The translations under genes and the position numbers were made by a program. DNA of 64,000 nt from Candidatus Methanomethylicia archaeon (GTDB lineage Archaea > Thermoproteota > Methanomethylicia > Culexarchaeales > Culexarchaeaceae), in contig JANXEO010000001.1 in assembly GCA_025058215.1 (NCBI GenBank), forward strand, positions 62,001 through 126,000. Reading direction: 5' to 3'. This document shows, one piece after another, positions 10,339 through 36,835 of this stretch; position 1 is the stretch's first letter, and each line of letters begins with the position of its first letter. The notes under the pieces were generated by a model. That model saw nothing but the letters and a program-made list of their open reading frames with translations, was not told the DNA's origin and did no database searches.

Positions 10339-11337
10339 ATGAGTAATGTAAAATTTGGTTTAGAACTTCTTCCAGTAACTCCAATACTAGATGTTGTTGA
10401 TGTTTCTAAGCATGCAGAAAATCTTGGTTTTGACGTGATATGGGTAACGGATCATTATAATAATAGGAATGTTTATGTAACGTTAACGTCTATAGCTTTG
10501 AATACTAAGAATATTAAGATTGGAACTGGTGTAGTGAATCCATACGTAGTTAACCCATTATGGACAGCTTCAGCTATAGCTTCAGTTGATGAAATTTCAG
10601 GTGGGAGAGCAATTCTAGGTATTGGAGCAGGAGATAGAGCAACTTTAGAGAAAATGGCTATTGATTGGGGAAAACCCTTAGTAGTTATAAGGGAGAGTGT
10701 GGAAATTATTAGACGTTTACTTAAAGGGGAAGTGGTAACCTTTGAGGGAGAGTTTGTTAAAAGTAGAGGAGCAGCTTTAACTTATAAACCAGTTCATGAA
10801 ATACCTATATATATAGGTGCTCAAGGTCCTAAAATGCTTACTTTAGCATCATCGATAGGTGATGGTATTTTAATAAATGCTTCACATCCAAAGGATTACG
10901 ATTATGCTATTAAAATTATCAAGAAGGCAGCTGGAGATAGATTTAATAAATTAGATATAGTTGCTTGTACAAGTTTCTCAATAGATAAAGATAAAACTAC
11001 AGCTATAAAAAATGTAAGACCAGTAGTAGCATTTATAGTTGCAGGAGCAGGAGAAGATGTGTTAAAGAGACATGAAATAGACGTAGAGAAAGTTAATATC
11101 ATAAGAGATAACCTTTCTAAAGGGAAATTCAAAGATGCAGCTTCAGCTGTAACTGATGATATGATAAATGCATTTTCAATTACTGGAACACCATCAGAAT
11201 GTATTGAAATGATAGATAAACTTATTAAGAAAGGAGTAACACAACTGGTACTTGGATCACCTATAGGGAAAGATAAAAAGGCAGCTCTAGAAATTACAGC
11301 TTCAGAAGTACTAGTACACTTTAAACAAAATAAATAA
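10339..11337 (+). CDS. mer: F420-dependent methylenetetrahydromethanopterin reductase
   Basis: Reduces methylene-H4MPT to methyl-H4MPT with F420H2, the last step of the archaeal methyl branch; cytoplasmic. It is a luciferase-like TIM barrel of 332 residues, the usual length for Mer. Diagnostic stretches are the N-terminal GFDVIWVTDHYNNRNVYVT, then TGVVNPYVVNP, TASAIASVDEISGGRA and LGIGAGD. These match Mer more closely than F420-dependent glucose-6-phosphate or alcohol dehydrogenases, which share the fold. It is the first gene of the C1 island but is transcribed apart from the fwd/ftr group, with its own promoter. Confidence in Mer is high; a related F420-dependent reductase acting on another substrate is the alternative. 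Confidence 0.92.
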   Translation: MSNVKFGLELLPVTPILDVVDVSKHAENLGFDVIWVTDHYNNRNVYVTLTSIALNTKNIKIGTGVVNPYVVNPLWTASAIASVDEISGGRAILGIGAGDRATLEKMAIDWGKPLVVIRESVEIIRRLLKGEVVTFEGEFVKSRGAALTYKPVHEIPIYIGAQGPKMLTLASSIGDGILINASHPKDYDYAIKIIKKAAGDRFNKLDIVACTSFSIDKDKTTAIKNVRPVVAFIVAGAGEDVLKRHEIDVEKVNIIRDNLSKGKFKDAASAVTDDMINAFSITGTPSECIEMIDKLIKKGVTQLVLGSPIGKDKKAALEITASEVLVHFKQNK

Positions 11338-11339
11338 AA

Positions 11340-11345
11340 TTTTTT
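11340..11345 (+). terminator. Possible T-tract terminator after mer
   Basis: Six T residues follow the mer stop codon within 8 bases, in an AT-rich context. T-tracts are the usual intrinsic termination signal of archaeal RNA polymerase. No hairpin is apparent. Confidence 0.3.
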
Positions 11346-11431
11346 ATCAATAAAAAATATCAATAAACATAAATTGAATTATTAATTGCTAAAATAGAGT
11401 TTAAGCTGTATTAACAATTTAGGGGAAATAT

Positions 11432-12046
11432 ATGGATGTATGTTTAATTGTTTTGGCAGGTGGTTCTGGAAATAGGATGAAAGGTTATAAGCCCATTTTT
11501 AAAATTCATGGGAAACCATTGATAAAAATTATCCTAGAGAAAATAATTGATGTATTTGATGAAATATTGATAGTGGTTCGTGAAGAATGGCAAAAAGAAC
11601 TATTAATTAGAGAATTAGATTTCAACGTTAGATATGTTTTTGATATACCATCACTAGAAGGACCATTAGCAGCCATATATGCTGGAGCTTTAAATTCTAA
11701 ATATGAAAAAATAGCTATTGTGCCATCAGATACACCATTCATAAATTCAAGTGTTTTCATTAAAATGAGTACTTATTTAAATGAGGATTATGAAGCTGTT
11801 GTACCCATATGGCCTAATGGATATCTTGAACCACTTATAGCAATTTATCTTAGGAATCCACTCATAGAAGCTTTAAAGAAAGTTATATCTGAAAATGAAT
11901 ATAGGGTGCAATTGCTACTTAAAAATTTAAAAACGAGATATGTAGATGTATATGAACTTGCATTGAATCCAGAGAAAGAATTCTTTAATATAAATACATT
12001 AGAAGAACTTGCATTGGCTGAAGAAATTATAGCTAAAGAACGTTAA
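11432..12046 (+). CDS. mobA: MobA-like molybdenum/tungsten cofactor guanylyltransferase
   Basis: Nucleotidyltransferase of 204 residues that should attach GMP to molybdopterin to give the guanine dinucleotide cofactor. Seen: the N-terminal nucleotide loop LAGGSGNRMKGYKP, the GKPLI segment, EGPLAAIYAG, PSDTPF in the metal-binding position, and a C-terminal NINTLEELA, as in MobA. The protein lies 94 bases after mer, and the tungsten or molybdenum enzyme FwdDB is encoded 6 kb away, so a role in Fwd cofactor synthesis is likely (inference). CofC, another small nucleotidyltransferase of F420 synthesis, is an alternative, but the MobA-like NINTxE(D/E)L ending argues against it. Confidence 0.8.
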   Translation: MDVCLIVLAGGSGNRMKGYKPIFKIHGKPLIKIILEKIIDVFDEILIVVREEWQKELLIRELDFNVRYVFDIPSLEGPLAAIYAGALNSKYEKIAIVPSDTPFINSSVFIKMSTYLNEDYEAVVPIWPNGYLEPLIAIYLRNPLIEALKKVISENEYRVQLLLKNLKTRYVDVYELALNPEKEFFNINTLEELALAEEIIAKER

Positions 12047-13151
12047 TTTCAAACCATTTTACAGGTTTTAAGTAGTCTCTACCACCAGCTTCAAAAGAAC
12101 CCAAAGTTACTTGACAATAATGTTCACCAGTTTTAACATTTTTAACTTCTTCTAATTTCCCTCTAACAATTACTTCTTCACCAGGATTAGCTAAATCTAT
12201 GTATAATCCTTCATAACTCACTACTTTTGCTATTGGTTTAGGAGGAAGATTACCTTCGATAATTTCAACATTATCAATTATGTACGTAGCTGGTATAAAT
12301 ATGGAATCTGTTGAATCAATAACTTTTGCTTTAATCGTTACAACTCCAATAGGTTTGTAGAAAACTTCTTCCCAATATTCTCTTACTTCATGTTCTAATT
12401 TTACTGGATGAACAGAAAATTGTCTACCTCTATACAAAGCTCTATTCCACTTATACTTGCTGTAAAGAAGTAGAGCTTCTTTTAGACTTAATGGATGTAT
12501 TTTAATTATATCATTTGCCCAAGAATAAAGAATTTCACCTTTTGGAAGAGAGAAATTGGAATCTTCTTCATATAATGCTTTTAATGTATTACGAACCTTA
12601 ATTGCATTTGAATAACCATAAACTATTAAATCTATATCGGAATATAGTGTATTATGTATACCTAAAAGTATCGATCCTGTTACTCCTAGAAAACTTAAAT
12701 CAACACCAGATTCACTTGAAATTCTAGTTACAAGCTCTCTAGCTAATTCTTCTAAGGGATCTTTAGGTGAAATAAGTAATTCTCTAAGTCTTTCTTCAGG
12801 TTTATAATGAAAATTTACTTTTTCCTTAGGAATTTCTGTTAATTCAATAGATCTAAAAACATCATACACTATATATTGTGGATAATTCTTTTTCAAAAAG
12901 CTCATGGTTTCTCTAACACCCATAGCACTATAGTATGGTAGTATTCTACCGTATGAAACACCACTTCTAGACCATTTCACCCTTATAGGAGATTCCATGT
13001 GGGGTACGTACTTCAAATATGCTAATACATGATCTCTAGGATGAACACATCCTATAACGCAAAAAATTAAACCATCTATTGATTCTATGAAATCTCTATC
13101 CCTAAATCCTCTATTCAAATTGCTCACAATAAATTCTAAACCTTTAAACAT
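12033..13151 (-). CDS. Archaeal nucleotidyltransferase-domain protein, function unknown (COG1665-like)
   Basis: A 372-residue soluble protein. Its middle holds a polymerase-beta-type nucleotidyltransferase core: GVTGSILLGIHNTLYSDIDLIVYG, with the GS motif and the two acidic residues D-I-D, at about residues 157-180. The N-terminal 130 residues (with CVIGCVHPRDHVLAYLKYVP) and a C-terminal beta-rich part after residue 280 are conserved in archaeal relatives as I recall them, but no substrate is assigned. It overlaps the 3' end of mobA by 14 bases in convergent orientation. It starts at ATG 13151. Function is not inferred beyond nucleotide transfer. Confidence 0.75.
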   Translation of the reverse strand: MFKGLEFIVSNLNRGFRDRDFIESIDGLIFCVIGCVHPRDHVLAYLKYVPHMESPIRVKWSRSGVSYGRILPYYSAMGVRETMSFLKKNYPQYIVYDVFRSIELTEIPKEKVNFHYKPEERLRELLISPKDPLEELARELVTRISSESGVDLSFLGVTGSILLGIHNTLYSDIDLIVYGYSNAIKVRNTLKALYEEDSNFSLPKGEILYSWANDIIKIHPLSLKEALLLYSKYKWNRALYRGRQFSVHPVKLEHEVREYWEEVFYKPIGVVTIKAKVIDSTDSIFIPATYIIDNVEIIEGNLPPKPIAKVVSYEGLYIDLANPGEEVIVRGKLEEVKNVKTGEHYCQVTLGSFEAGGRDYLKPVKWFEINVL

Positions 13152-13240: not shown

Positions 13241-14143
13241 ATGATAATTGGTATAATAACTAGAAATCCTAATAGTTGGTCTTCTCGTAACATTATGAGG
13301 GCAATAGAAGAAATAGGTTGTACACCATTTCCATTTAAATTTAGAGATATCTTATCATTTATAAGCGATAAAAGTATACAGATATTTGCAAAAAATATAA
13401 ACTTAATTAGAGATGTTTCAGCAATAATAGTGAGACCATTTGGTAGAATGAGTTTAGATCAAGCAATATTGAGAATAGACATACTATATGCATTACAGGA
13501 AATGGGAATACCAATAATAAATAAACCTTCAACAATTGAAAAATGTGTTGACAAGTTTAGAGCACTTTACACATTAAAAATTCATGGTTTACCAGTACCA
13601 AAAACTATTGTAACTGAAAGATCTAATATAGCTATTAAAAATCTAAATTTACTAAAGAGTCCATATGTGGTGATAAAACCAATGTTTGGATCTAGAGGTC
13701 ATGGAAGTACAAGAATAAGGCTTAGAGATAGAGATGTATTATGGGAAGTAATAAAAGCTCTCTCATTTGTTGGACACACCATATACATACAAGAATTCCT
13801 ACCACATGGAGGAGTAGATATAAGAGCATTCATTATTGGAGGGAAAGTTATTGCAGCCATGTATCGTAAAGGTCCAAGAGGTATGTGGAAAACGAATATA
13901 GCTCAAGGTGCTGTACCTCAAAGAATAAATAAACTTGAACCAAACATAGAAGAATTAGCTATAAAAGCCACTGAAATTTTAGAGTGTGATATTGCTGGTG
14001 TTGATATTGTAGTTATAGAGGATTCACCGTACATTCTTGAAGTAAATAGTCAACCTGGATGGAAAGGATTGCAAAGTGTTGTTACAGATATGGATATAGC
14101 TAGAGAAATAGTGAAATATGTAATTGAAAAAGCAAGAAAGTAA
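13241..14143 (+). CDS. RimK-family ATP-grasp ligase, MptN/CofF-like alpha-L-glutamate ligase
   Basis: ATP-grasp enzyme of 300 residues. Seen: INKPSTIEKCVDKFRALYTL, typical of RimK ligases, the ATP-binding VIKPMFGSRGHGSTRI, YIQEFLPHGGVDIRAFIIGGKVIAAMYR, and the C-terminal magnesium site ILEVNSQPGWKGLQ. This family adds L-glutamate through an alpha or gamma linkage to tetrahydromethanopterin (MptN), to F420 (CofF), to ribosomal S6 (RimK) or to lysine carrier proteins (LysX). Its position between mer/mobA and mch suggests a C1-coenzyme substrate, so MptN or CofF is preferred; this is context inference. It diverges from the nucleotidyltransferase gene and converges on mch. Confidence 0.75.
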   Translation: MIIGIITRNPNSWSSRNIMRAIEEIGCTPFPFKFRDILSFISDKSIQIFAKNINLIRDVSAIIVRPFGRMSLDQAILRIDILYALQEMGIPIINKPSTIEKCVDKFRALYTLKIHGLPVPKTIVTERSNIAIKNLNLLKSPYVVIKPMFGSRGHGSTRIRLRDRDVLWEVIKALSFVGHTIYIQEFLPHGGVDIRAFIIGGKVIAAMYRKGPRGMWKTNIAQGAVPQRINKLEPNIEELAIKATEILECDIAGVDIVVIEDSPYILEVNSQPGWKGLQSVVTDMDIAREIVKYVIEKARK

Positions 14144-14170: not shown

Positions 14171-15127
14171 CTATAATCCAATGGCCTTCTTTAAAATTTC
14201 ATAGTTTATGTATCCGGCCTTAAATATTGACCCAGTTTTAATATTGCATACCATGACAACTGCTGGGGCAAAAACACTTGGATCAAGTTTATATAAGAAG
14301 TCAACTCCCACTTGTAATACTAATTCTGTAAAGGATTTACCATAATCTTTTGATGTTGAGCTAGGAGATTTATCTACGAATTCTTTAAGTTCAACATCGT
14401 TTGGGAAATCCACATTATAAAATGTTGAACCTCCATATAATAGCATGTCATTAGTTTTACCCAGCATAACCATTGAACTTGGATGTGGTGGTGCTATTGG
14501 GCATACGCCAAATCCATACTTTATATTCTTTATTTTAAAACCTAATACATGGAATTTGTGTATACCAGTTTCAACAATTCTAGCACTTACCTGTATAGAT
14601 CCAGCAATACTACTTGGTGAAGCAACAGCTAAATATAGATTTTCAGGTTTAACACCACTAGATTCACTTATAAATTTAACAACTTCTTCAGTAGGAAAAG
14701 CTTCGGTTTCAAGAACTAAAACAGCTTCATCAGAGACTTCAGAATACCCTAATTCTTCATACAATTTCTTAGGTTTTCTTGCAAGAGCTCTAGCAGGTCC
14801 ACTAGCATTAGCAAAGAAATCTCCAACCTTTATTCTCCACCCAGCAAGTTGCGAAGCCATACATGATTCAATAGGATAATCAGTATATACTAGAACAGCT
14901 GGGAAAGCAATGGAATCTATATTAAAGCTGGTTAATTTAACTTCTCCCAATCCACCTAAACACAATTTAGACAATATTATTCCAGCTTCCCATCCACCAG
15001 GAGCTTTCAATCCCATATCGATAATTGTAGCTCCACCAATTTTCATTGAAGTTATCTGTAATTCCTTTTCCCTCTTAAGAGCATCCATTACAATCTCTAC
15101 AGCTAATTTATTCATAGATTTACTCAA
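14171..15127 (-). CDS. mch: Methenyltetrahydromethanopterin cyclohydrolase
   Basis: Interconverts formyl-H4MPT and methenyl-H4MPT, the third step of the methyl branch. The protein is 318 residues, the usual length. Family stretches seen are GGWEAG near residue 40, CLGGLGEVKL, CMASQLAGWRIKVGDFFANASGPARALA, KKLYEELGY, and API-PPHPSSMVMLGKTNDMLLYGG toward the C-terminus. It is the last gene of the minus-strand operon ftr-mtd-fwdDB-fwdA-fwdC-mch and overlaps the end of fwdC by 8 bases, so translation is probably coupled. No unusual feature is seen. Confidence 0.95.
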   Translation of the reverse strand: MSKSMNKLAVEIVMDALKREKELQITSMKIGGATIIDMGLKAPGGWEAGIILSKLCLGGLGEVKLTSFNIDSIAFPAVLVYTDYPIESCMASQLAGWRIKVGDFFANASGPARALARKPKKLYEELGYSEVSDEAVLVLETEAFPTEEVVKFISESSGVKPENLYLAVASPSSIAGSIQVSARIVETGIHKFHVLGFKIKNIKYGFGVCPIAPPHPSSMVMLGKTNDMLLYGGSTFYNVDFPNDVELKEFVDKSPSSTSKDYGKSFTELVLQVGVDFLYKLDPSVFAPAVVMVCNIKTGSIFKAGYINYEILKKAIGL

Positions 15128-15992
15128 TTTCTACAACCTCCTTAATAACTTCTTTATATGGTTTCAACAATTCTTCATTATCTTGTAGGGATATATATAG
15201 CATTCCCCTCCCTCCAACAATTACATCTGCTATAAATACCATGAAAGGTTTTGGAAAAACAACTTCTCTAACTTTTATTGATGGAACTATGGAATCAACA
15301 TAAAAACTTGGAAGAATACCTTCAACACGACCACCTATGATAATTCTTCCACCAATCATTCTAGAACCTGGATATATGTGGCAATTACCACGAACAATTA
15401 TAGTACCTCCAGTCATATACGATCCACAAAGCATACCAACATTACCATCAATTAAAATCCTCCCACCTTTCATACCAACACCCACCTGTGAACCAGCATT
15501 ACCATGTATGACTATTGAACCTCCAGACATCCCCTTACCAAGTTTTTCTCCAGGAAGTTTTCCGCCAATACAATCACCACAATCTTTAAAGACTTCTATA
15601 CTTCCACCCTTCATTTTTGCACCAATATAACTTCCAGCTCTACCTTCAACAGTTATTGATCCATTAGACATTTTGTAGCCTATAAAATGTCCAACATCAC
15701 CTTTAACAACGATTTTACCACCATTCATTTTATAACCTAAATACCTCAATTTATTAGTGTTAAAACCATTGACTATAATTTCTATACTGTTAACATCTTT
15801 AGGTGACGATGCAGGACCATCCACTTCAAATAAATCTTCAATAGTAGCTTCTCTACCACCCTCAAAAACTTTAAATTTCTTAATTTCATCTAAACTTTTG
15901 CCAATAAATTTATCTGGAGAAATATTTCTTACATCTATTGGTACAATAGATGCCCTTTTTAATTTAAAGATATAAGTGTATTTAGTGCTCAT
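15120..15992 (-). CDS. fwdC: Formylmethanofuran dehydrogenase subunit C
   Basis: Structural subunit of the Fwd complex, which reduces CO2 to formate and attaches it to methanofuran. About 290 residues. The central part, roughly residues 80-230, is a right-handed beta-helix built from repeats of the form (G)-x-(M/K)-x-GG-x-I-x-(V/I)-x-G (for example YKMNGGKIVVKGDVG, KMKGGSIEVFKDCG, GMKGGRILIDGNVG), as in glutamate synthase alpha domains. The frame is open to a GTG at 16001, but GAGGTG there is the ribosome-binding site and the ATG at 15992 has the right spacing. It follows fwdA directly. Confidence 0.94.
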   Translation of the reverse strand: MSTKYTYIFKLKRASIVPIDVRNISPDKFIGKSLDEIKKFKVFEGGREATIEDLFEVDGPASSPKDVNSIEIIVNGFNTNKLRYLGYKMNGGKIVVKGDVGHFIGYKMSNGSITVEGRAGSYIGAKMKGGSIEVFKDCGDCIGGKLPGEKLGKGMSGGSIVIHGNAGSQVGVGMKGGRILIDGNVGMLCGSYMTGGTIIVRGNCHIYPGSRMIGGRIIIGGRVEGILPSFYVDSIVPSIKVREVVFPKPFMVFIADVIVGGRGMLYISLQDNEELLKPYKEVIKEVVEIE

Positions 15993-15997
15993 CTTCA

Positions 15998-17719
15998 TCA
16001 CCTCAAATAAGTTTTAATGGTAATTTCCATAGGATTTTTTAATTCACGTTTATCTATTATGAAGTTTTCAAGAGCTATAGAATAATATTGTTTAAACATC
16101 AATTTCAACTTTTCATATAATTCCTTAGTTATATCTTCAGGTATCTCGGGTTTTACATAAAAGTTCTTACCATAAATAGTTTTAACAATTTCACCATTTT
16201 TCACAACTATTTCACCATCTTTTATAGTCATGTAAGTTTTTCTAAAGGCTTTAACAACTTTTTCATAATCTCTACTGAAATCGATTTCCCTTGGATTAAT
16301 ATCATATATCGCTATATCAGCATCAGCACCTTCACCTAAATGACCTTTAATCTTATCTAAACCAAATAGTTTTGCTGGATAAGATCTAGTCATGGCAATT
16401 ATTTCGTAAAGGTTGAGTTCTCTATCAATGGATGGTAATACACATCTCTTTAAAGCTTTCTTATTTAATTGTTTCATGAAATCATCTCTAGCTTTACGGC
16501 TCATAAGCCAACTAATCAAAATCGGGTAATCTACAAAGGGACCTCCATTAGGATGATCTGTAGTTAAGAAAACTCTCCATAAATCCTTAGCTAACAATAT
16601 TACTTCAAGACCTATAGCCCACTGTATAGTGTTTACATAGCTTTTTTTACGGTACTTATATGGAACAACACCTGAAGAAGCTTCAATCTCAGTATCAGTA
16701 GTACTCCACTTCCAACGTGTAAGATGGTATAGTACAAACTCAAATGGTGCATCTGCAGTCATGGTTGTTGCAGGTCTACCTGGAATTACTTGACCTATAT
16801 CTAGAGTAACATATGGATTTGCATTCAGCTCTTTAGCTATATATTCTCCCCCACTTTCTAATGTATTCCATGAATCACCTTTATAACCTGTAAATTGAAC
16901 ATGTGTAATATGTAATGCAGGTTCTTCTGAAACTCTTGTTATAGCTCCAGTTAAACCAATAGTTTTAATAGTTGTGAGATAATTTCCAGGATAACCAAGC
17001 CTATTACAATGTACATGAACTTTATGTGGCACATTTAATAATTGAGCAGATTCAGCAACAGATTTAATTATATCTCTTGGAGTTAAATTGTATCCTGGAA
17101 GTTGATCATCTATATCTAAACCAATACCTTTAACCATCCAAGCCATATCAGAACCTGCATCAACAATTTTTAAAGCATAAGTTTTAGTTGCATATAATAA
17201 CCAACCTAAATATGCTGAAAGAATATCTCTTAAACCCTCTTGAATTAAATCCAATAATATCCAATTGGAATCTACGAGTACAAATGCCATTTTATCAATT
17301 ATTGGAATAGAATTCAATTCTTCATGTGTATGTCTAGTTTTTATTGGTGGTGTAGCAGGTTCAGCTACAAAAGTGTATCCCATTCTAGCATATTCATACC
17401 CAATTTTGAAAACATTTGGAACTGTAAGACCAGTTTCAGCTCTTCTATATGGTAGTTTATGAGGGATATTTGTTAAATAATGATCTTCAGGTCTAATAAG
17501 TCTACCAATATTAACTTTAGGACCAGCTATATGTGAATGTATATCTATACCACCGGAAACTACAATCTTACCTTTAGCATCTACAACTACAGCTTTATTA
17601 ATATCAATTTTAGAGGGATCAACGATTTTCCCATATTTAACTCCTATATCCATTTCTTCACCATTAATATTATTAAGTGGATCGTAAACAATACCATTCT
17701 TTATTAATATTTGAGTCAT
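15998..17719 (-). CDS. fwdA: Formylmethanofuran dehydrogenase subunit A
   Basis: Amidohydrolase-type subunit that condenses formate with methanofuran. 573 residues. The binuclear metal site is visible: HSH at residues 61-63 (the same numbers as in characterised FwdA), a lysine in YALKIVDAG (residue 184) in place for the carboxylated lysine, histidines in VHVHCNRLG and LHITHVQ, and the aspartate of TTDHPNGG. The N-terminal ILIKNGIVYDPLN and C-terminal GEGADADIAIYDINP are standard for the fold. It overlaps the stop of fwdDB by 4 bases, which indicates translational coupling. Identity is secure. Confidence 0.96.
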   Translation of the reverse strand: MTQILIKNGIVYDPLNNINGEEMDIGVKYGKIVDPSKIDINKAVVVDAKGKIVVSGGIDIHSHIAGPKVNIGRLIRPEDHYLTNIPHKLPYRRAETGLTVPNVFKIGYEYARMGYTFVAEPATPPIKTRHTHEELNSIPIIDKMAFVLVDSNWILLDLIQEGLRDILSAYLGWLLYATKTYALKIVDAGSDMAWMVKGIGLDIDDQLPGYNLTPRDIIKSVAESAQLLNVPHKVHVHCNRLGYPGNYLTTIKTIGLTGAITRVSEEPALHITHVQFTGYKGDSWNTLESGGEYIAKELNANPYVTLDIGQVIPGRPATTMTADAPFEFVLYHLTRWKWSTTDTEIEASSGVVPYKYRKKSYVNTIQWAIGLEVILLAKDLWRVFLTTDHPNGGPFVDYPILISWLMSRKARDDFMKQLNKKALKRCVLPSIDRELNLYEIIAMTRSYPAKLFGLDKIKGHLGEGADADIAIYDINPREIDFSRDYEKVVKAFRKTYMTIKDGEIVVKNGEIVKTIYGKNFYVKPEIPEDITKELYEKLKLMFKQYYSIALENFIIDKRELKNPMEITIKTYLR

Positions 17720-19452
17720 GCACCTACCTCCTTCTTCTCCTTCAATTTACTTAAAATAATAGATAAAATTTCAAAATCTGAAAGAATACCTGGAGCAGGA
17801 TCAACCACTTTCTTCATTCTTATTGGGATACCATCCATTCTGTAAGCGGAACCTTCACATTCTATACCAACATATCCTACTGGAAGTACTACATCAGCGA
17901 ATAATGTTGTTAAAGACCATTTAGCATCCATTACAATAACAGGTATTTTTGATAAATGTTCAACAGCTTTACGTGGAAGATGAGCTACAGGATCGCTTGC
18001 AACTATGAAAACAGTATCAACATCACCATTTGAAAGTATATCTACAGCCGTAGTTACACCTGGAATCATTTTGGGGAATCCCCTTGAGAAATCTACAGCA
18101 TATGGATAACCTGTAAGCCAAAGGATGACTTCATTAGAACCAGTAACATTATAATGACCTCTCATAGGTATTATAGCAAATTTAGTCCATTCATTTAATT
18201 CTTGAACAAATCTTATTAATTCTTGAGTAAATTTATGTTTTGCACCACTCATAGTAACTCCTACACCAGCAAATATAACTCCATATTTTGCTGTAGTCAT
18301 CATTTCAGATAACTCTAAGATTTTATCTCTTGAAACTCCAGCTACATTTGGCACTTCTATTTCGAGATTTTTTATAGCCATATGAAGTGCTGTTAAAAGT
18401 TCTAAATCCCTTCCAGGCTCTATTTTAATGAATAAATCAGACCTCTCAGCTATAGGGGTTTTCCTAACATCAATAACTACGATCTTCCTATCTTCACGTC
18501 CTTTAACATACTTTCCAGTACGCATTATCAATCTTGTAAAATGATTAAGATGTGCATGAGAAGGATTAGAACCCCAAAAAATTATTAAATCAGCTAATTG
18601 TATAACAGTTCCAAAAGTTGTTCTAACAGAACCTATCTCTTGAATACCTTGAATTGTAGGTCCATGACATACTGTACTTGTATTATCTATAACTCCACGT
18701 GTAATTTCAGCCAATTCAACACCAAGTTCTACAGCTTCATTACATGTATTAGCCCAACCATAAAATAGAGGATATTTAGCTTTAACAAGAATTTCTACCA
18801 CTTCATCAATAGCTTTATTCAAATCAATTTCAAGAAGTTTACCATTTTTCCTAATATATGGTTTCATTATTCTATGCTTATCATAATTAAGGAATTTTGC
18901 AATAGATATAGCACAACCACCAATATTCCTTAAAATTTTTTCACCATCAGCTTCAATTCTAAGATTATCACATAAATCACCGCAAAATGGACATGGAATA
19001 TTTTCAAAAACTTTCTTTTCTCCAGTTTTAACAGGTCTATCCATTGGGAAATATTCTAATCCCTTTACACCAAGAGATTTTAAGATTACATTTAAAGATG
19101 TAACATCTTCATTAGTGGGTTCTACAAATACTTTGATAGACTTTAAACTAGGCATACCAGTACCATCAGTTAATGAAGACATTATGAAATTAATCCAGGG
19201 ACCCATAGGTACAAATATAGTTCCATTAGATATATTACTATTAGCTTTAACAGGAAGCACAACACTTCCATCTTTACCTATGATTTTAACTCTATCAACT
19301 ACTCCAAGTCTACTTATATCGTCAGGATTCATTTCCAAAAGTGCAACAGCTTGAAAATACTTATCACTTAACTTACCTTCACTTTCCATAGATACTCCTT
19401 GAGCTAAAGTTCTACCAGTCACTAAGTAAAAAATATTGGAATTTAAATTCAT
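17716..19452 (-). CDS. fwdDB: Fused formylmethanofuran dehydrogenase subunits D and B
   Basis: A single 578-residue reading frame joins the small FwdD domain (about residues 1-140, with VTGRTLAQGVSMESEGK and FVPMGPWINFI) to the catalytic FwdB domain (about 150-578). FwdB features are the 4Fe-4S cysteines C154, C157, C161 and probably C180 (CPFCGDLCDNL ... GGC), and C262 in STVCHGPTIQG, the tungsten or molybdenum ligand. Cysteine rather than selenocysteine stands at the metal. The cofactor is a bis-pterin guanine dinucleotide, consistent with the nearby mobA-like gene. In characterised methanogens D and B are usually separate genes; no stop or frameshift separates them here. Coupled to mtd upstream by a 4-base overlap. 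Confidence 0.93.
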   Translation of the reverse strand: MNLNSNIFYLVTGRTLAQGVSMESEGKLSDKYFQAVALLEMNPDDISRLGVVDRVKIIGKDGSVVLPVKANSNISNGTIFVPMGPWINFIMSSLTDGTGMPSLKSIKVFVEPTNEDVTSLNVILKSLGVKGLEYFPMDRPVKTGEKKVFENIPCPFCGDLCDNLRIEADGEKILRNIGGCAISIAKFLNYDKHRIMKPYIRKNGKLLEIDLNKAIDEVVEILVKAKYPLFYGWANTCNEAVELGVELAEITRGVIDNTSTVCHGPTIQGIQEIGSVRTTFGTVIQLADLIIFWGSNPSHAHLNHFTRLIMRTGKYVKGREDRKIVVIDVRKTPIAERSDLFIKIEPGRDLELLTALHMAIKNLEIEVPNVAGVSRDKILELSEMMTTAKYGVIFAGVGVTMSGAKHKFTQELIRFVQELNEWTKFAIIPMRGHYNVTGSNEVILWLTGYPYAVDFSRGFPKMIPGVTTAVDILSNGDVDTVFIVASDPVAHLPRKAVEHLSKIPVIVMDAKWSLTTLFADVVLPVGYVGIECEGSAYRMDGIPIRMKKVVDPAPGILSDFEILSIILSKLKEKKEVGA

Positions 19453-20294: not shown

Positions 20295-20308
20295 ATAATT
20301 CACCTCCA

Positions 20309-21259: not shown

Positions 21260-21270
21260 TAAATTCAAAC

Positions 21271-25229: not shown

Positions 25230-25241
25230 ATGTTGAAAAAT

Positions 25242-25439
25242 ATGTGTGAATCAAATGTATATGTAAGAATTAATGGGAAAGAGGAACTTTTGATTAAAGA
25301 TGTAATATCACTAGTACCTAAAGAGGATACATATATTTTCATAGATATAACTGGAAGAAAATACGAGATAGAAAATGTAATTATAGAATTCATAGATTTC
25401 ATATCTCATAAAATTGTTTTAAAAAGAAAAGTTTTGTAG
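25242..25439 (+). CDS. cooT: CooT-family nickel-binding protein
   Basis: A 65-residue protein related to CooT, a small nickel-binding accessory protein of carbon monoxide dehydrogenase maturation. The sequence MCESNVYVRINGKEELLIKDV matches the family start, and DISHKI-like FISHKIVLKRK near the end fits the beta-barrel. An ATG 12 bases earlier (25230) is also in frame; ATG 25242 is chosen because it places cysteine at residue 2, the nickel ligand position known in CooT. It lies 9 bases before cooC, and the pair stands before the CODH genes. This context strongly supports a role in nickel supply. Confidence 0.85.
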   Translation: MCESNVYVRINGKEELLIKDVISLVPKEDTYIFIDITGRKYEIENVIIEFIDFISHKIVLKRKVL

Positions 25440-29327: not shown

Positions 29328-30809
29328 ATGAGTATAATTATAAATATTCTAGAACCATTAGAAATCAAAAAGGAAATAATAAAGGTGTATAATGTCCCTC
29401 CAACACCAGAAAAAGGTATGTTCATAGATATACCCGTAGATGTGGGACCTCAATATGAAGGACAAAGAATTAGAAGAGAAGATATGCATGTGGAATTTGG
29501 AGGACCGAAGCTCAAACATAAATTTGAAATTGCGAGGGTAAAAAATCTTGAGGAAATTGATGATGGGAAAATAATTGTTGTAGGACAAGATATTAATGAA
29601 TTGAAGGAAGGAGGAACACATAATCTTGCTATAATAGTAGAAGTCGCTGGAAGAAATCTAACTGTAGATGCTGAAGGTGTTATAGAAAGGAGGATACATG
29701 AATTTTGTAATTACACACAAGGATTTATGCATTTAAATCAAAGGTATGATATATGGTTGAGGGTTGGTAAGAAATCCTTCAGCAAAGGATTAAATTCATT
29801 TAAGCATATAGGTACAGTGCTATACAGACTATTTAAATCAGCATTCCCAATAATAGAAAAGTTTCAAGTAACATTTATTACAGAACCACAAATAGTTGAA
29901 AAATTGTTTGAACAAGCAATAAAAGTTTACAATGCAAGAGATGAAAGAACTTTTGGATTAAAAGATGAAGAAGTAGACGTATTCTACTCTTGCAGACTCT
30001 GTCAATCTTTCGCACCAACACATGTATGTATTATAACTCCAGAAAGACCTTCTAATTGTGGAGCTATAACGTGGATAGATGCCATGGTAGCTGCAAAAAT
30101 AGATCCAAAAGGGCCAATAGCTCCAGTATATAAAGGAAAGTTAACAGATCCAATAAAAGGGGAGTGGAGTGGAGTTAATGAAAACGTTAGAAAACTTTCT
30201 GGCGGTGCAGTTCAAAGAATAACTCTATATTCAGCATTTGAAAATCCACATACTTCATGTGGATGTTTTGAATGTGTAACGTTTTATGTACCTGAAGTTG
30301 ATGGATTAGGAATTGTACAAAGAGGATATGCAGGTGTAACACCAGTAGGATTGAAATTTGGAGATATAGCTGATTCAGCAGGTGGAGGAAAACAAATAGC
30401 TGGATTCTATGGTCTTGGAGTATTATATATGAGAACTAATAAGTTTCTACAAGCAGATGGTGGATGGAATCGTATAGTATGGATGTCATCAGAATTAAAA
30501 CAGAAGATTCTAGATGCAATACCATTAGATTTACGTGAAAAAATTCCAACAGAAAAAGAAGTAAAAACAATAGAAGAACTTAAAAAGTTCCTTGTGGAAA
30601 AGGGACATCCATCAGCAAAGAAAATAGTAGAAGCACCACCCACACCAATAGAAAAACGTGTAGAAGAGGTTGTACCAGCAATTTCAACAACTCCACAAGC
30701 GGAAGCTGTAGTAACATTACCAGAATTACCATTAACCATGGGTGGATTTAGTCTTATTCTCAAAAATGTGAAGATTAAAGCTGAAAAATTAATAATTAAA
30801 AGAACTTAA
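29328..30809 (+). CDS. cdhC: Acetyl-CoA synthase (CODH/ACS beta subunit)
   Basis: Carries the nickel A-cluster that makes acetyl-CoA from CO, a methyl group and CoA. 493 residues; as in other archaea it lacks the N-terminal CODH-binding domain of bacterial ACS. Metal ligands are C222, C225, C234 and C244 for the 4Fe-4S cluster, and C311 and C313 (TSCGCFECV) for the distal nickel. The spacing between them (2, 8, 9 and 66 intervening residues, then one) is the same as in the well-studied Moorella enzyme. After about residue 425 comes a proline- and valine-rich linker, then a short conserved-looking tail LKNVKIKAEKLIIK. A GAGGTGAAG site precedes the ATG. Confidence 0.96.
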   Translation: MSIIINILEPLEIKKEIIKVYNVPPTPEKGMFIDIPVDVGPQYEGQRIRREDMHVEFGGPKLKHKFEIARVKNLEEIDDGKIIVVGQDINELKEGGTHNLAIIVEVAGRNLTVDAEGVIERRIHEFCNYTQGFMHLNQRYDIWLRVGKKSFSKGLNSFKHIGTVLYRLFKSAFPIIEKFQVTFITEPQIVEKLFEQAIKVYNARDERTFGLKDEEVDVFYSCRLCQSFAPTHVCIITPERPSNCGAITWIDAMVAAKIDPKGPIAPVYKGKLTDPIKGEWSGVNENVRKLSGGAVQRITLYSAFENPHTSCGCFECVTFYVPEVDGLGIVQRGYAGVTPVGLKFGDIADSAGGGKQIAGFYGLGVLYMRTNKFLQADGGWNRIVWMSSELKQKILDAIPLDLREKIPTEKEVKTIEELKKFLVEKGHPSAKKIVEAPPTPIEKRVEEVVPAISTTPQAEAVVTLPELPLTMGGFSLILKNVKIKAEKLIIKRT

Positions 30810-30826: not shown

Positions 30827-32053
30827 ATGAATAAAGAAAGGAAGGAAGAAACACAAGAAAAAACTGCAATGGATAATTTATTAACGATGATAATGGAAGC
30901 TATAGAAAAAGGATTCATTGAATTACATGATGTAGAAATAGATGTAGAAGAAATGGAAATAAAATTACAACCAGTTATTAGCAAAACATTAAAACCAGTA
31001 ATTAAAAAGGTGGAGAAAGCTATTGTGGAATTAAGTAAAATTACGTTCGAAGAACCAAAAATAGATTTTCCAGGGAAAATTGTAGAAGTAAAGATTGGCG
31101 CAACAAAATCTGAAGGAGGAACTAGGGATAGAAGTATATTCATTGGAGGGCATACAATGCCACCATACTATTATGTGTATGGATACGTATCTCAAAATCC
31201 TCCGGCTTTTGGTGGAGATATATTTGATATGAGAATATCATTACCTAGAGCTGTTAGACAAGTTTTTGGAGATGTACTAGATAATCCAATTGAATGGGCT
31301 AAAATGTGGATTAATGAATTTAAAGCTGAAGCAATAAATGTTCATTTAGTAAGTACAGATCCAAATATAAAGGATACATGTCCTTCAGATTCCGCTAAAT
31401 TAATTGAAGAAATTCTACAACAAGTTAAAGTACCTATTGTTGTTGGTGGATGTGGTCATCCAACAAAAGATGTTGAAGTATTTAAAAAAGTATCTGATGT
31501 TGCTGAAGGGGAGAGAATAGTTTTAAACAGTTTAAATTTAGATATGAAAATTGAAGATATATGTAAACATATAGCAAAGAAAGATACTGTAGTAATAAAT
31601 TTTTCACCTATGGATTTAGATAAAGCTAGAGAAATAAATAGGAAAGTTTATGATTGGATACCAAAGAGTAGGATAATATTAGATTTAAACATTGGAGGTA
31701 TAGGATATGGTACAGAATACGGGTTTACAGCTATGGAAAGAGCTAGACTTGCAGCCTTATTAGGAGATGAAGAATTGCAACATCCATTTAATGTTGGTGC
31801 TTCAAATGCTTGGGGGGCTAGAGAAGCATGGATAACTATGGATCCCTATTGGGGGCCGAGGGAAATTAGAGGTCCATTATGGGAGGTATTAACATGTACA
31901 ATATGTCTTCTTGCAGGTGCAGATTACTTCATGATACTACATCCGACAACTTTAAAAACATTAAAAGAATTAAGGGAAAACATGTTTTTACAAATAAAAT
32001 CAATTACTAAAGATATTATAGATTGGGTTTCACAAAAATTACCGGTGATTTAA
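30827..32053 (+). CDS. cdhD: CODH/ACS corrinoid iron-sulfur protein, delta (small) subunit
   Basis: TIM-barrel half of the corrinoid protein that carries the methyl group between methyl-H4MPT and ACS. 408 residues. Seen: FPGKIVEVKIGATKSEGGTRDRSIFIGGH near residues 80-110, with the GGTR motif, and HPFNVGASNAWGAREAW in the C-terminal region, both standard in CdhD. A charged N-terminal extension of about 75 residues contains LHDVEIDVEEMEIK, similar in pattern to the end of CdhC. It begins after a GGAGG site and abuts cdhE directly. Confidence 0.94.
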   Translation: MNKERKEETQEKTAMDNLLTMIMEAIEKGFIELHDVEIDVEEMEIKLQPVISKTLKPVIKKVEKAIVELSKITFEEPKIDFPGKIVEVKIGATKSEGGTRDRSIFIGGHTMPPYYYVYGYVSQNPPAFGGDIFDMRISLPRAVRQVFGDVLDNPIEWAKMWINEFKAEAINVHLVSTDPNIKDTCPSDSAKLIEEILQQVKVPIVVGGCGHPTKDVEVFKKVSDVAEGERIVLNSLNLDMKIEDICKHIAKKDTVVINFSPMDLDKAREINRKVYDWIPKSRIILDLNIGGIGYGTEYGFTAMERARLAALLGDEELQHPFNVGASNAWGAREAWITMDPYWGPREIRGPLWEVLTCTICLLAGADYFMILHPTTLKTLKELRENMFLQIKSITKDIIDWVSQKLPVI

Positions 32054-33493
32054 ATGCCGTGGAAACCTCCAAATCCAATAGAAATATACAATTTACTACC
32101 TAGAACTAATTGTGGAAAGTGTGGAGAAGCCAATTGTATGGCATTTGCAGTTAAAGTTTCAAATCTTGAAACAGCTATTGAGGAATGTCCACCACTACTA
32201 GAAGAAAAGTACTCAAATAATTATAGAAAAGCAAAGTCTTTAGTTGCACCACCAATTAAGGAAATTATGTTAAAATCACCTAAGAGAATAGTGAAAATTG
32301 GAGGAAAATATGTATTACATAGACATGAACTAAGATATATGAATCCAACAGCTATAGCAATAGATGTAGATGACTCAATGGATAAAGATACCCTAATGAA
32401 AAGACTGAATCTTGCTGAAAATTTCATATATGAATATGTTGGAAGACAACTTAAACTAGACCTTATAGCCATTAGATCTGTATCTAATGATCAAAAACAG
32501 TACATGAAAACTGTACAAACTGTTGTTGAAAATTGTTCATTACCATTGATATTATGTTCTCATAATCCAAGGGTAATTGAAGCAGGTTTATCAGTTTTAA
32601 GTACGGAATATAAGCCACTAATATACGCAGCTAATAAAGATAATTGGAGAGAAATGGTTGAATTAGCTAAAACATTTAATTCAGCTTTAGCAATATCAAG
32701 TTCTGGAGATTTAAACTCTTTAGTGTCCATTGCGAAGACTTTAACAGAAGATGTGGGTTTGGAAGATGTTGCTTTAGATCCCGGATGCCCTGCAAATATA
32801 AATGGTTTACCTTATGTAATTAAAGCTTTTACACAATTAAGATATAAAGCAATAAATGAAGGTTACAAATATTCAACATATCCTCTCATAGGAACACCTA
32901 TATCAATATGGGCGAGTAAAATTGATGATCCAATACAGAAAATGTGGTGGGAAACAATATTATCAACAATTTTAATGACGAGGTATGCTGACCTCATAAT
33001 TATGCATTCAATTGAGGGATGGGCACTTTTACCATTAACTATTTGGAGATTTCAACTTTATACAGATCCAAGAAAACCTGTTGCAGTAGAACCAGGGATT
33101 AAAACTATTGGAAGTCCAGATGATACATCACCAGTATTTGTAACAAGTAATTATGCTTTAACCTACAGTATAGTTTTAAATGATATACAGAAAAGTGGGA
33201 TAAATGCATGGCTAATAGTTATAGATACAGAAGGTTTAGCAGTAGATGTCTCGGTAGCTGCTAAGAAATTTACAGGAGAGAAAATTTCGGAATTGATTAA
33301 GCAAAAAAATCTTGAAGAAAAAATAAAGCATAGAATACTAGTAATACCTGGAAAAGCTGCTAGAATTTCTGGGGAACTGGAAGAAGTAAGTAAATGGAAA
33401 GTTTTAGTAGGACCTACTGATTCAAGTGAAATATCATCATTCATTAAGAAAATATGGACTCCAGAAAAGATTAGAGAGATTATGGAGAGCTAA
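32054..33493 (+). CDS. cdhE: CODH/ACS corrinoid iron-sulfur protein, gamma (large) subunit
   Basis: 479-residue subunit holding the cobamide and one 4Fe-4S cluster. The N-terminal cluster ligands are C20, C23, C28 and C45 (CGKCGEANCMAF ... EECPPLL). A TIM barrel domain binds the delta subunit, and the C-terminal domain has the cobamide-binding region (from about residue 370, with KIS...VLVGPTDSSEISSF at the end). Within the barrel DVALDPGC is characteristic. It directly follows cdhD with no gap. The low-potential cluster serves to reactivate oxidised cobalt, a task linked to the RACo-like gene next in line. Confidence 0.94.
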   Translation: MPWKPPNPIEIYNLLPRTNCGKCGEANCMAFAVKVSNLETAIEECPPLLEEKYSNNYRKAKSLVAPPIKEIMLKSPKRIVKIGGKYVLHRHELRYMNPTAIAIDVDDSMDKDTLMKRLNLAENFIYEYVGRQLKLDLIAIRSVSNDQKQYMKTVQTVVENCSLPLILCSHNPRVIEAGLSVLSTEYKPLIYAANKDNWREMVELAKTFNSALAISSSGDLNSLVSIAKTLTEDVGLEDVALDPGCPANINGLPYVIKAFTQLRYKAINEGYKYSTYPLIGTPISIWASKIDDPIQKMWWETILSTILMTRYADLIIMHSIEGWALLPLTIWRFQLYTDPRKPVAVEPGIKTIGSPDDTSPVFVTSNYALTYSIVLNDIQKSGINAWLIVIDTEGLAVDVSVAAKKFTGEKISELIKQKNLEEKIKHRILVIPGKAARISGELEEVSKWKVLVGPTDSSEISSFIKKIWTPEKIREIMES

Positions 33494-33505
33494 TTTAATG
33501 GGAAA

Positions 33506-35374
33506 ATGGAGTATGTAAAAGTTTTCTTTCCACAATATAAAGTTGAAATTTCTATTGATAAAGGTACAAAAATATTGGAAGCTATACATAAAGCAAACAT
33601 AGGTATTAGGAGTATATGTGGTGGAAAAGGGCTTTGTGGAAAATGTAAAGTCATTATAAGTAGAGGTAGAGTAAAACATGAAGTTAAAGATAAAGAATTA
33701 ATATCATCTGAAGACATTTCCAAGGGGTATGTATTAGCTTGTTTAGCAAAAATCGTAGAAGATATTGAAGTACTAATTCCCCCAGAAAGTATTATTGGAA
33801 AAGCTAAATTATTAATTGATGTCAATTTACCAAAATTTTCTATAGAACCATATATACATAAAATCCAAATTAAAATGAAAAAAATAGAAGATTTAAATCA
33901 ATTGTTTAGAAGATATTTAATGGATAATGAACTTCAAAAGAAAATTATTGATGAAATAGAAATAGGTAAAGAAATAACATTGATAGTTGATTCCTATACA
34001 TCTAGAGTATTAGATTACAGTTTTAGAGATTTTAAACATGAAATTTATGGGTTAGCCATAGATATAGGAACCACTAAAATAGTTGCTTCATTAATAAATA
34101 CATTTACAAGTGAAATTCTAGTTACAGAATCAAAATTCAATAAGCAATTGATATATGGAGAAGATTTAATATCTAGAATATCATATGCACTTGAAAAAGA
34201 AAATGGTCTTAGAGAATTACAACATGCTATAATTCAAACAATAAACGAAATAATTGACGATATATGTAAAAAACTTGGAATAAATCATAATAACATATAC
34301 ATTGTAAGTACAGCTGGAAATACCGTAATGACATATACTTTTATAGGATTGGACCCAAGTCCCCTTATAAAATCATTTAAAGAGCGGGTAAACGTAAGTA
34401 GAAAGCCGTATATAATTAATTCAAAAGATTTAGGGTTAAAAGTAAATGATAATGCGATTGTTTACGTGCTTCCATGTGTAGGTAGATTTCTAGGAGGAGA
34501 TGTTATTGGAGATATAATAACATCTGAAATGAATTTTTCAAGTAAACCTACACTATTAATAGATATAGGAACTAATACTGAAGTAGTTATTGGTTGTAAA
34601 GATTGGATGTTAGGTACAACGGCACCAGCAGGACCTGCATTTGAAGGTTGGGGACTTAAATGTGGAGTTAGAGCTATTGAAGGAGCTATAGAGAGTATGG
34701 ATATAGAACCTGAAACTCTAGAACCACAATATAAGGTTATAGGTGATTCAAAACCTATTGGTATCTGTGGATCAGGTTACATAGATTTATTAGCTGAACT
34801 CTTCAAACATGGTATAATAGATCCAATGGGGAAATTCAAAAGTAATTTAAAATCTTCACGTATTAAAATGGGGTATGATGGATATGAATACATAGTTGCA
34901 TTTCAAAATGAAACCGCAACCAATAGAGAGATAGTAATAACGGAAAAAGATATATATAATTTAATAGATGCAAAATCCTCTGTATGTGCGGCAATATCAA
35001 TATTATTGAAGAAAATGATGTTGAATGTGTACGATATAGATAAAGTGTATATATGTGGAGCCTTTGGCAAATATCTAAATATAAATAATGCTATAGTTAT
35101 AGGAATGATACCAGAATTTGTAAAAGCTGAAATAATATTTATAGGGAATGGTTCACTTGGCGGTGCATACTTATCTATTGCATCAAAAAAACATAGAGAA
35201 GAAGCTGAAAGAATTGCAAAAATTACAGCTAGCATAGAATTAATGTTAGATCCAGATTTCATGGAGGAATATCAAGCTGGTTTCATATTACCAGGTAGAA
35301 AAGATCTATTTCCAACATGGTGGGAAATTAGCAGGAAAATTATAAAAAACAAGTTTTTAAATCCTGAAATGTAA
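33506..35374 (+). CDS. RACo-type reductive activator of the corrinoid protein (2Fe-2S ferredoxin plus ASKHA ATPase)
   Basis: A 622-residue protein that should use ATP to return inactive Co(II) corrinoid to Co(I). The N-terminal ferredoxin domain has cysteine ligands C38, C44, C47 and C79 (CGGKGLCGKC and ACLAK). A linker of about 100 residues leads to the DUF4445-type ASKHA ATPase with the phosphate motifs LAIDIGTTKIVAS, LIDIGTNTEVVIG and YICGAFGKYL. Length and order match bacterial RACo. It lies 12 bases after cdhE, so a function in the CODH/ACS corrinoid protein is well supported; methyltransferase activators (RamA) have a different architecture. Confidence 0.9.
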   Translation: MEYVKVFFPQYKVEISIDKGTKILEAIHKANIGIRSICGGKGLCGKCKVIISRGRVKHEVKDKELISSEDISKGYVLACLAKIVEDIEVLIPPESIIGKAKLLIDVNLPKFSIEPYIHKIQIKMKKIEDLNQLFRRYLMDNELQKKIIDEIEIGKEITLIVDSYTSRVLDYSFRDFKHEIYGLAIDIGTTKIVASLINTFTSEILVTESKFNKQLIYGEDLISRISYALEKENGLRELQHAIIQTINEIIDDICKKLGINHNNIYIVSTAGNTVMTYTFIGLDPSPLIKSFKERVNVSRKPYIINSKDLGLKVNDNAIVYVLPCVGRFLGGDVIGDIITSEMNFSSKPTLLIDIGTNTEVVIGCKDWMLGTTAPAGPAFEGWGLKCGVRAIEGAIESMDIEPETLEPQYKVIGDSKPIGICGSGYIDLLAELFKHGIIDPMGKFKSNLKSSRIKMGYDGYEYIVAFQNETATNREIVITEKDIYNLIDAKSSVCAAISILLKKMMLNVYDIDKVYICGAFGKYLNINNAIVIGMIPEFVKAEIIFIGNGSLGGAYLSIASKKHREEAERIAKITASIELMLDPDFMEEYQAGFILPGRKDLFPTWWEISRKIIKNKFLNPEM

Positions 35375-35397
35375 ATGGTATAGGGATTTTAAGATAT

Positions 35398-36171
35398 ATG
35401 AAAAGACCTTTCATAGCTTCAATATCAGGGAAAGGTGGTACTGGAAAAACCACTTTAACTTCACTATTACTTAAAGTTTTACTGGATAAACAAACTGAAG
35501 ATTTAATTTTATTAGTAGATGCAGATCCAGCTATGAATTTACATGAATTACTTGGTGTAAAAATTGAGAATAGCATAGCTGATGTAGTTGAGGAATTTAG
35601 ACGTTCAGTGGATAGACCAGAGGTAGCTATTGGATTTTCAAAAGATACTCTTTTAGAATATTGGGTGCATAAAGCTATAGTTGAATGTAAAGGATTCGAT
35701 CTATTATCAATGGGTAGAGGTGAAGGAGAAGGATGTTATTGCTATATAAATACAGTATTAACGAGAATACTGGGGAAAATCAGTAGAAATTACAGTGTAA
35801 TATTAATGGATATGGAGGCTGGACTTGAACATTTAAGTAGAAGAACAGATAGATATGTAGATACATTAATTGTTGTTGTAGATCCATCAATAATGAGTTT
35901 AAAAACTGCAGAGAAAATTAAGCAAATAATTAAAGAAGTAAATATAGAAGTTAAACAAATGTATATTGTTGGAAATAAATTACCAATATCCATGAATGAA
36001 AAATTGTATATGTGGTCTAAAAATATTGGATATGAAATTGCTGGGATAATTCCAGAAGACAATATGATACTAGAGTATAGCATAAAAGGAAAATCTCTCC
36101 TAGAATTACCAAATGAAAATCCAGCAGTAAAAGCTGTAGAGAAAATAGCAGAAAATATAGGGTTGATATAG
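35398..36171 (+). CDS. Second CooC-family ATPase, AcsF-like
   Basis: MinD-like P-loop ATPase of 257 residues. Deviant Walker A SGKGGTGKTT at the N-terminus, VDADPAMNLHELLG, and a CxC motif in GEGEGCYCYINTVLT near residue 114; DMEAGLEHLSRRTD follows. The GEGxGCYCY form resembles AcsF, the ACS-associated nickel maturation ATPase of acetogens, more than the CLCPEY form of the cooC at 25449. So this paralogue may load nickel into CdhC while the other serves CdhA (inference). It follows the RACo-like gene by 23 bases and precedes the DUF3786-like gene. Confidence 0.87.
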   Translation: MKRPFIASISGKGGTGKTTLTSLLLKVLLDKQTEDLILLVDADPAMNLHELLGVKIENSIADVVEEFRRSVDRPEVAIGFSKDTLLEYWVHKAIVECKGFDLLSMGRGEGEGCYCYINTVLTRILGKISRNYSVILMDMEAGLEHLSRRTDRYVDTLIVVVDPSIMSLKTAEKIKQIIKEVNIEVKQMYIVGNKLPISMNEKLYMWSKNIGYEIAGIIPEDNMILEYSIKGKSLLELPNENPAVKAVEKIAENIGLI

Positions 36172-36226
36172 ATATAAAAAGAAAACTTCATTAATCATAT
36201 ACAAACTATTTTAATCTGTGAATAAA

Positions 36227-36835
36227 ATGTTATCTTCATCATTAATGAATTGGTGGAACTGGAAAAATATTGGAACTAGTATAAAGACCCTTAGTGGAAG
36301 ATTGGGGTTTGGAGAAAGAGAAATTGACTTTCTTGGACTTAAACTGAATCTAGACAATGGAGAAATATATGATGAAATAAGGAAGAGATTTTTAAAAAAT
36401 GAAGAAAAAGTTGAAATATACTATGTTCTTTACATGTATTCACAAACATTACAAGATGTTAAAGAAACAAGTGAATATGTAACATTAATTGAATTATTCA
36501 AATGTATTGGAGATCTAGCAGCATCTCATTGTCCGGAATTTAAGAACGCATGTAGAAGGTTAGAAGAAGTTTTTGGGAAGAAACCAAATCTAATATATCA
36601 AGCTTCGAAAAGATTTAAACATGAACTTCTCGATTACGGTGATGCATCAGTAAAAATATATGCATTACCGAAGGTACCGATAATCATAACAATATGGTGT
36701 GGAGATGAAGAATTACCACCATCAATAAACATAATGTTTGATAAATCAGTACTTAACTATCTACCCGATTGCGAAGCTCTAGTAAGACTTACAAAAATCA
36801 CTATTGAAAGACTTATAATAACAATGGAGATATAA
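36227..36835 (+). CDS. DUF3786-like protein of the CODH/ACS island, function unknown
   Basis: About 202 residues, soluble, no signal peptide. The middle has YYVLYMYSQTLQDVKETSEYVTLIEL and the end IPIIITIWCGDEELPPSINIMFDKSVLNYLPDCE, which resembles DUF3786 proteins known from bacteria with Wood-Ljungdahl or corrinoid genes. It ends the cdh operon after RACo and the AcsF-like ATPase. The frame opens at GTG 36218; ATG 36227 is taken as the start. The mechanism is unknown. Placement suggests help in corrinoid protein or ACS maturation, stated here as inference. Confidence 0.7.
   Translation: MLSSSLMNWWNWKNIGTSIKTLSGRLGFGEREIDFLGLKLNLDNGEIYDEIRKRFLKNEEKVEIYYVLYMYSQTLQDVKETSEYVTLIELFKCIGDLAASHCPEFKNACRRLEEVFGKKPNLIYQASKRFKHELLDYGDASVKIYALPKVPIIITIWCGDEELPPSINIMFDKSVLNYLPDCEALVRLTKITIERLIITMEI

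Follow-up and report, generated by a model that had tools for sequence, protein, structure and literature searches.

The 64,000-nucleotide stretch of DNA analyzed here (the window) lies on contig JANXEO010000001.1 of a Culexarchaeia metagenome-assembled genome (MAG; G000, 452 kb in 6 contigs, 46% complete). A block of ~26 kb within it (positions 10339 to 36835) encodes Mer, Mch, FwdA, FwdC, an FwdD-FwdB fusion, Mtd, Ftr and CdhA to CdhE, the two branches of an archaeal Wood-Ljungdahl pathway of the tetrahydromethanopterin (H4MPT) type, together with two CooC proteins, CooT, RACo, a DUF3786 protein and BtuCDF. We consider it highly probable that this block is a chromosomal island that was acquired, was then inherited vertically, and was deleted whole in one sister species. 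By Ftr, the nearest named relative is Candidatus Culexarchaeum nevadense, of a neighboring genus (79% identity).

Genes were identified by scans with NCBIfam and Pfam profiles, comparing the bit scores with the equivalog or Pfam cut-offs (Table 1). Mer, Mch, FwdA, FwdC, FwdB, Mtd, Ftr, CdhA, CdhC, CdhD and CdhE exceeded their NCBIfam equivalog cut-offs, and the open reading frames (ORFs) of the block were intact, with starts and stops mostly overlapping or close together. A sequence-only reading of this DNA had named the pathway enzymes and their accessories as one block, in agreement with the profile matches, which also showed FwdD and FwdB to be a single polypeptide. Its mobA-like, mptN-like and cofE-like genes matched those families but stayed below the equivalog cut-offs, the last being only a distant relative of CofE. 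The placement of the branches on opposite strands was correct for mch, the fwd genes, mtd and ftr (minus) and for the cdh genes (plus), but not for mer, mobA, mptN and the cofE-like gene, which are also on the plus strand.

The same gene order was found on one contig of G002, from the same family and another genus. With f marking genes of the window's left flank and g those of its right flank, it runs f4 to f8, mer, mobA, a nucleotidyltransferase-like (NTase) gene, mptN, mch, fwdC, fwdA, fwdDB, mtd, ftr, the cofE-like gene, cooC, cdhA to cdhE, raco, cooC, DUF3786 and g1 to g3, BtuCDF being the sole block absent relative to the window. All junctions, through the island and both flanks, are thus common to two independent assemblies, which excludes a mis-assembly of two genomes. 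A third genome of the family, G003, carries the same island; the only internal difference seen there was the absence of mer between f8 and mobA (L191; G003:C20, about 1420-1510).

Gene order is constant within the family but not at the level of order, class or phylum; its universality, raised in the sequence-only reading as grounds for rejecting the island, therefore extends to the family level only. Among 398 Thermoproteota genomes, 88 contained both ftr and cdhC; the two genes shared a contig in 24 of these, lay within 40 kb in 12 and within 15 kb in just 8, counts that are lowered by MAG fragmentation. The contrast drawn earlier between one compact island here and scattered genes elsewhere is in accordance with these figures. 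Like the island, the Bathyarchaeia-like (f10) and f42 clusters have ftr and cdhC 6-14 kb apart (six genomes), but the f10 clusters that were read differ in gene order and show an Ftr identity of just 34-38%. Close counterparts were found in Ignisphaera-like, Desulfurococcaceae and Sulfolobales MAGs, where both modules have the internal order of the island, including RACo and CooC (mptN-mch-fwdC-fwdA-fwdDB-(mtd)-ftr and cooC-cdhA-E-raco-cooC). Unlike in the island, however, a distance of roughly 20-37 kb separates the two modules, or they sit on different contigs. The mtd gene between ftr and fwdDB is missing from many Thermoproteia methyl clusters (L020-L023, L026, L119, L036) and kept in others (L024, L025, L027, L032).

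Essentially every comparable island gene was closer to those MAGs, which we label Thermoproteia from record titles and same-phylum kinship (the donor genomes carry their submitters' names), than to homologues in its own order or class. Identities to the Thermoproteia MAGs were 71-79% for ftr, 64-73% for fwdA, 59-67% for mch and 72-75% for cdhA, and those to its own class were 57-64% for ftr, 43% for mch and 55-57% for cdhA. The flanking ABCE1 gene showed the reverse (43-53% to the Thermoproteia MAGs versus 54-61% to its own class and 66-74% to its own order). RACo was common to the window and the Thermoproteia-type MAGs but did not appear in those own-class stretches that were read.

Trees were computed for concatenated Mch-FwdC-FwdA-FwdDB-Ftr, for concatenated CdhA-C-D-E and, as a flanking housekeeping control, for ABCE1. 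In both concatenated trees the family of the window and G002 fell inside the Thermoproteia group, with Shimodaira-Hasegawa-like approximate likelihood ratio test (SH-aLRT) values of 99-100 on the containing nodes (weaker inner nodes had 94 in the methyl tree and 87 in the Cdh tree, one each), and the own-class homologues formed a separate clade (support 100). In the ABCE1 tree, the family grouped with its own order. Approximately unbiased (AU) tests rejected a clade of the family with its own class or order for the methyl branch (p = 2.35e-36) and for cdh (p = 7.0e-5); for the methyl branch, Thermoproteia monophyly without the family was also rejected (p = 0.0023). The conflict between the island proteins and the flanking ABCE1 indicates horizontal acquisition. 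Transfer into Culexarchaeia, and a single joint transfer of both branches, are likely rather than proven, since the nesting within Thermoproteia was significant for the methyl branch and not for Cdh. The donors of the gene set to the ancestor of the family would have been hot-spring archaea of the Thermoproteia type, relatives of Ignisphaera and of the Sulfolobales MAG SKYB35; vertical inheritance in fixed order would have followed, with the BtuCDF importer gained in the genus of the window and, in one sister species, a one-piece deletion by recombination at a short direct repeat.

That sister species is represented by G001 (99% complete), whose flanks are 94-96% identical to those of G002 and which follows the window colinearly for about 60 kb. 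The whole block is missing from it, ftr and cdhC being absent, and the phosphoesterase gene f8 directly precedes the sequence that in G002 lies past DUF3786. This empty site is located inside a 1.08-Mb contig. A 16-bp repeat, CCTAGGAGAATTAAAC, which is the 3' end of the flanking phosphoesterase gene, was present at both island edges in G002, and the junction in G001 coincides with it. The simplest explanation is that G001 lost the block by deletion, because G003, which has the island, branches outside G001 plus G002 in the ABCE1 tree. The opposite polarity, an ancestral empty site in G001 with separate insertions in the other species at an attachment site in the 3' end of the phosphoesterase gene, would be in agreement with the direct repeat at both G002 edges and with the tRNA-Arg nearby. 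We think it improbable given the position of G003, and because repeated insertions would be needed to explain an identical order and location in another genus; besides, no integrase was annotated in the block, the repeat is degenerate in G003, and on inspection no obvious copy of the 3' end of the flanking gene was seen at the right edge of the window.

Vertical inheritance of the pathway itself was also considered, the family and the Thermoproteia having kept an ancestral TACK version while other class members diverged or replaced theirs. There is not much probability in this, since several parallel losses or replacements would be required, the class homologues form one clade that the AU tests separate from the family, and G005, from the same order, carries class-type cdh; the antiquity of the pathway in archaea, the native base composition and the vertical descent of the block within the family are what speak for it. 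Still less probable, to the point of being hardly credible, is that the island is ordinary family-level synteny without any particular history and that the identity pattern comes from contaminated Ignisphaera and Sulfolobales bins: the donors are indeed MAGs, but the pattern recurred in about a dozen independent assemblies, several with contigs of 166 kb to 894 kb (L025, L026, L032), and the donors' ABCE1 sequences group among themselves.

Several observations weigh against an acquired island for the complete pathway. All the genomes compared are MAGs. For cdhACDE, Thermoproteia monophyly excluding the family was not rejected (p = 0.085), and G411 was placed differently in the methyl and Cdh trees; the two branches may therefore have moved separately, or the direction may have been the reverse. 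Profile scans found no integrase or mobility gene among the annotated block genes. The G+C content was 0.318 in the block versus 0.297 and 0.318 in the flanks, and GC3 was equal; with a composition like that of the flanks the acquisition must be old. The block showed no FwdF/G-type electron carriers, and the canonical RFAP synthase (TIGR00144) was not over its cut-off in G000 to G005 (G000 46%, G002 95% and G003 91% complete). Since G002, G003 and G005 carry H4MPT-branch genes and yet lack this enzyme by that measure, the enzyme may be a divergent one, or else uptake or another carrier may be involved. The suggestion that the genes could move as a unit is therefore upheld for transfer of the gene set between distant lineages (identities, trees and AU tests) and for en-bloc gain or loss (G001), but not in the sense of a self-mobile element, in view of the lack of an integrase, the flank-like G+C and GC3, and the vertical descent since the split of the two genera of the family.

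In the pathway as proposed, Fwd, Ftr, Mch, Mtd and Mer would convert CO2 to methyl-H4MPT, or run in reverse, and the methyl group would pass via CdhD/E to the acetyl-CoA synthase CdhC, to be joined with CO from CdhA. By their families, RACo would reactivate the CdhD/E corrinoid, CooC and CooT would supply nickel, and the MobA-like, MptN-like, CofE-like and NTase proteins would make or finish cofactors.

The sequence-only reading had expected candidates for C1 functions among the unknown neighbors, and one emerged that was not on its list, the 372-amino-acid NTase. No family was over its cut-off for this protein (PF01909, 16.8 versus 21 bits; 23.1 for a paralogue), although the GS-x-DxD motif residues were invariant in seven homologues. 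Its AlphaFold2 model had a predicted local distance difference test score (pLDDT) of 84.5; Foldseek gave weak OB-fold and NTase matches, none significant, and a PDB sequence search with the NTase alignment returned nothing significant. The fold evidence is modest. Members of the family were absent from G001 and present twice each in G002 and G003. The second copy adjoins a gene of the CitG family (L214:4852-6904; G002:C33), and G001 matches both sides of this region: the 2.2 kb that hold exactly these two genes are gone, leaving 204 bp between G001:C1:912822 and 913027.

Across the 398 genomes, the two families coincided almost perfectly: both were present in 178, CitG only in 8, NTase only in 19 and neither in 193 (phylogeny ignored). 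The starts of the two genes were within 2.5 kb of each other in 49 of the 99 genomes with listed positions, 46 of which have ftr. In 14 control genomes, CitG matches were confined to Escherichia coli and the four archaea that also have RFAP synthase. The pair was also found among the 102 CitG genomes without ftr, as would suit a pterin function general to archaea, not one confined to this pathway. One genome of the Ignisphaera family (G177, 99% complete) has both families and lacks ftr and cdhC, possibly a second natural loss of the pathway.

CitG enzymes transfer the triphosphoribosyl moiety of ATP; a nucleotidyltransferase acting as their partner then makes a phosphodiester with loss of pyrophosphate, in citrate lyase as in malonate decarboxylase. 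The methanopterin tail is an alpha-ribosyl 5-phosphate in phosphodiester linkage to 2-hydroxyglutarate, a structure that these two reactions would produce. With ATP as donor, the CitG-like enzyme would attach a triphosphoribosyl group in alpha linkage; the NTase would join the product to 2-hydroxyglutarate, releasing pyrophosphate, as in CitG/CitX. By this analogy we tentatively propose, as a possibility short of an even chance, that the two families are an unrecognized two-step system for the ribosyl-phosphodiester tail of H4MPT. Like CitG/CitX of citrate lyase and MdcB/MdcG of malonate decarboxylase, the archaeal pair combines a CitG-family enzyme with a nucleotidyltransferase-type partner. 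Unlike CitG and MdcB, the archaeal protein scores 49 bits against an equivalog cut-off of 280, and the pair tracks C1 and pterin genes, not lyases. A 2011 inventory counted about 7 unknown proteins in methanopterin biosynthesis (PMC3087415), and we found no account of CitG in this synthesis in the literature. The pair would be a concrete, testable proposal for the missing steps, and G001 a natural knockout whose co-lost genes point to dependent ones.

The Wood-Ljungdahl pathway of Culexarchaeia has already been published (PMC9723716), in the same class as the window and with the H4MPT branch, no mcr and only the MtrH subunit of Mtr. In the window's own genome, mcrA was not found in the 452 kb available. 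The clustering, the transfer and the en-bloc deletion are additions to that work, whose main text does not use the words 'horizontal', 'CODH' or 'Ignisphaera'; nor did we find a literature account of a transfer of the pathway involving Ignisphaera. There is evidence here that a complete carbon-fixation/acetyl-CoA pathway, both branches plus accessories, crossed an archaeal class boundary and was removed in one step, which bears on the origin of patchy archaeal C1 metabolism. Ignisphaera S33 and S23 are listed as fermentative heterotrophs (PMC8579995); despite this label, the Ignisphaera S33 and Desulfurococcaceae S23 MAGs (L020, L022, L132, L134) carry cdhA-E, raco, cooC and ftr-fwd genes.

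Table 1. Features of the pathway block and its right edge, in window coordinates (MFR, methanofuran; CODH, carbon monoxide dehydrogenase; ABC, ATP-binding cassette)
Feature	Coordinates	Strand	Evidence or remark
mer, F420-dependent methylene-H4MPT reductase	10339..11337	+	NF002619 433 bits, TIGR03555 413
mobA-like nucleotidyl (guanylyl) transferase	11432..12046	+	NF001457 114 bits, cut-off 164; PF12804
372-aa NTase-like protein, candidate H4MPT-tail enzyme	12033..13151	-	PF01909 sub-threshold; motif GSILLG-x-SDIDLIVYG; predicted C-terminal OB-type domain
MptN-like RimK/ATP-grasp glutamate ligase	13241..14143	+	NF040720 256 bits, cut-off 350
mch, methenyl-H4MPT cyclohydrolase	14171..15127	-	TIGR03120 376 bits
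fwdC	15120..16001	-	TIGR03122 219 bits
fwdA	15998..17719	-	TIGR03121 716 bits
fwdD-fwdB fusion, catalytic subunit of formylmethanofuran dehydrogenase	17716..19452	-	NF042908 residues 8-128; TIGR03129 494 bits, residues 151-569
mtd, F420-dependent methylene-H4MPT dehydrogenase	19449..20309	-	NF002162 372 bits
ftr, formyl-MFR:H4MPT formyltransferase	20309..21268	-	NF002554 409 bits
Distant CofE-family gamma-glutamyl ligase	21332..22234	+	PF01996 57 bits; TIGR01916 42, cut-off 181
BtuD-type ABC ATPase	22238..23017	-	Profile match; absent in G002
BtuC/FecCD permease	23007..23981	-	PF01032 261 bits
BtuF-type binding protein	23997..25106	-	PF01497 84 bits
cooT, CODH nickel accessory protein	25230..25439	+	PF10133 58 bits
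CooC-like P-loop ATPase 1	25449..26234	+	Profile match
cdhA	26337..28706	+	TIGR00314 1146 bits
cdhB	28703..29245	+	TIGR00315 55, cut-off 101; PF02552 51, cut-off 21
cdhC, acetyl-CoA synthase	29328..30809	+	NF003379 652 bits
cdhD	30827..32053	+	TIGR00381 354 bits
cdhE	32054..33493	+	NF003195 541 bits
RACo/AcsV-like corrinoid reductive activator	33506..35374	+	PF14574 297 bits; NF040756 487, cut-off 800
CooC-like P-loop ATPase 2	35398..36171	+	Profile match
DUF3786 protein	36218..36835	+	PF12654 80 bits
tRNA-Arg(GCG)	37032..37107	-	Conserved just beyond right edge, also in island-less G001

As for the remaining cofactor genes, the MobA-like protein probably serves the tungsten/molybdenum-bis-molybdopterin guanine dinucleotide (W/Mo-bisMGD) cofactor of Fwd. 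The CofE-like gene adjoins ftr or mptN repeatedly, in several families, and its product may ligate the glutamate tail of methanofuran or of H4MPT instead of that of F420; a PDB sequence search with it gave no match. A corrinoid is the likeliest substrate of the BtuCDF importer, because CdhD/E and RACo are encoded in the block. Its ATPase and permease also matched, below cut-off, models named for F420-0 transport. An Rfam scan yielded two tRNAs only, with no B12 riboswitch by the importer. An 82-amino-acid ORF at 25154-25402 (minus strand) was discarded as spurious, CooT lying on the opposite strand there. In the right flank, indolepyruvate oxidoreductase-like and ADP-forming acyl-CoA synthetase-like genes (45853-49676, with the IorA-like and synthetase-like ones at 46457-49676) are kept in the island-less G001 and are therefore independent of the pathway.

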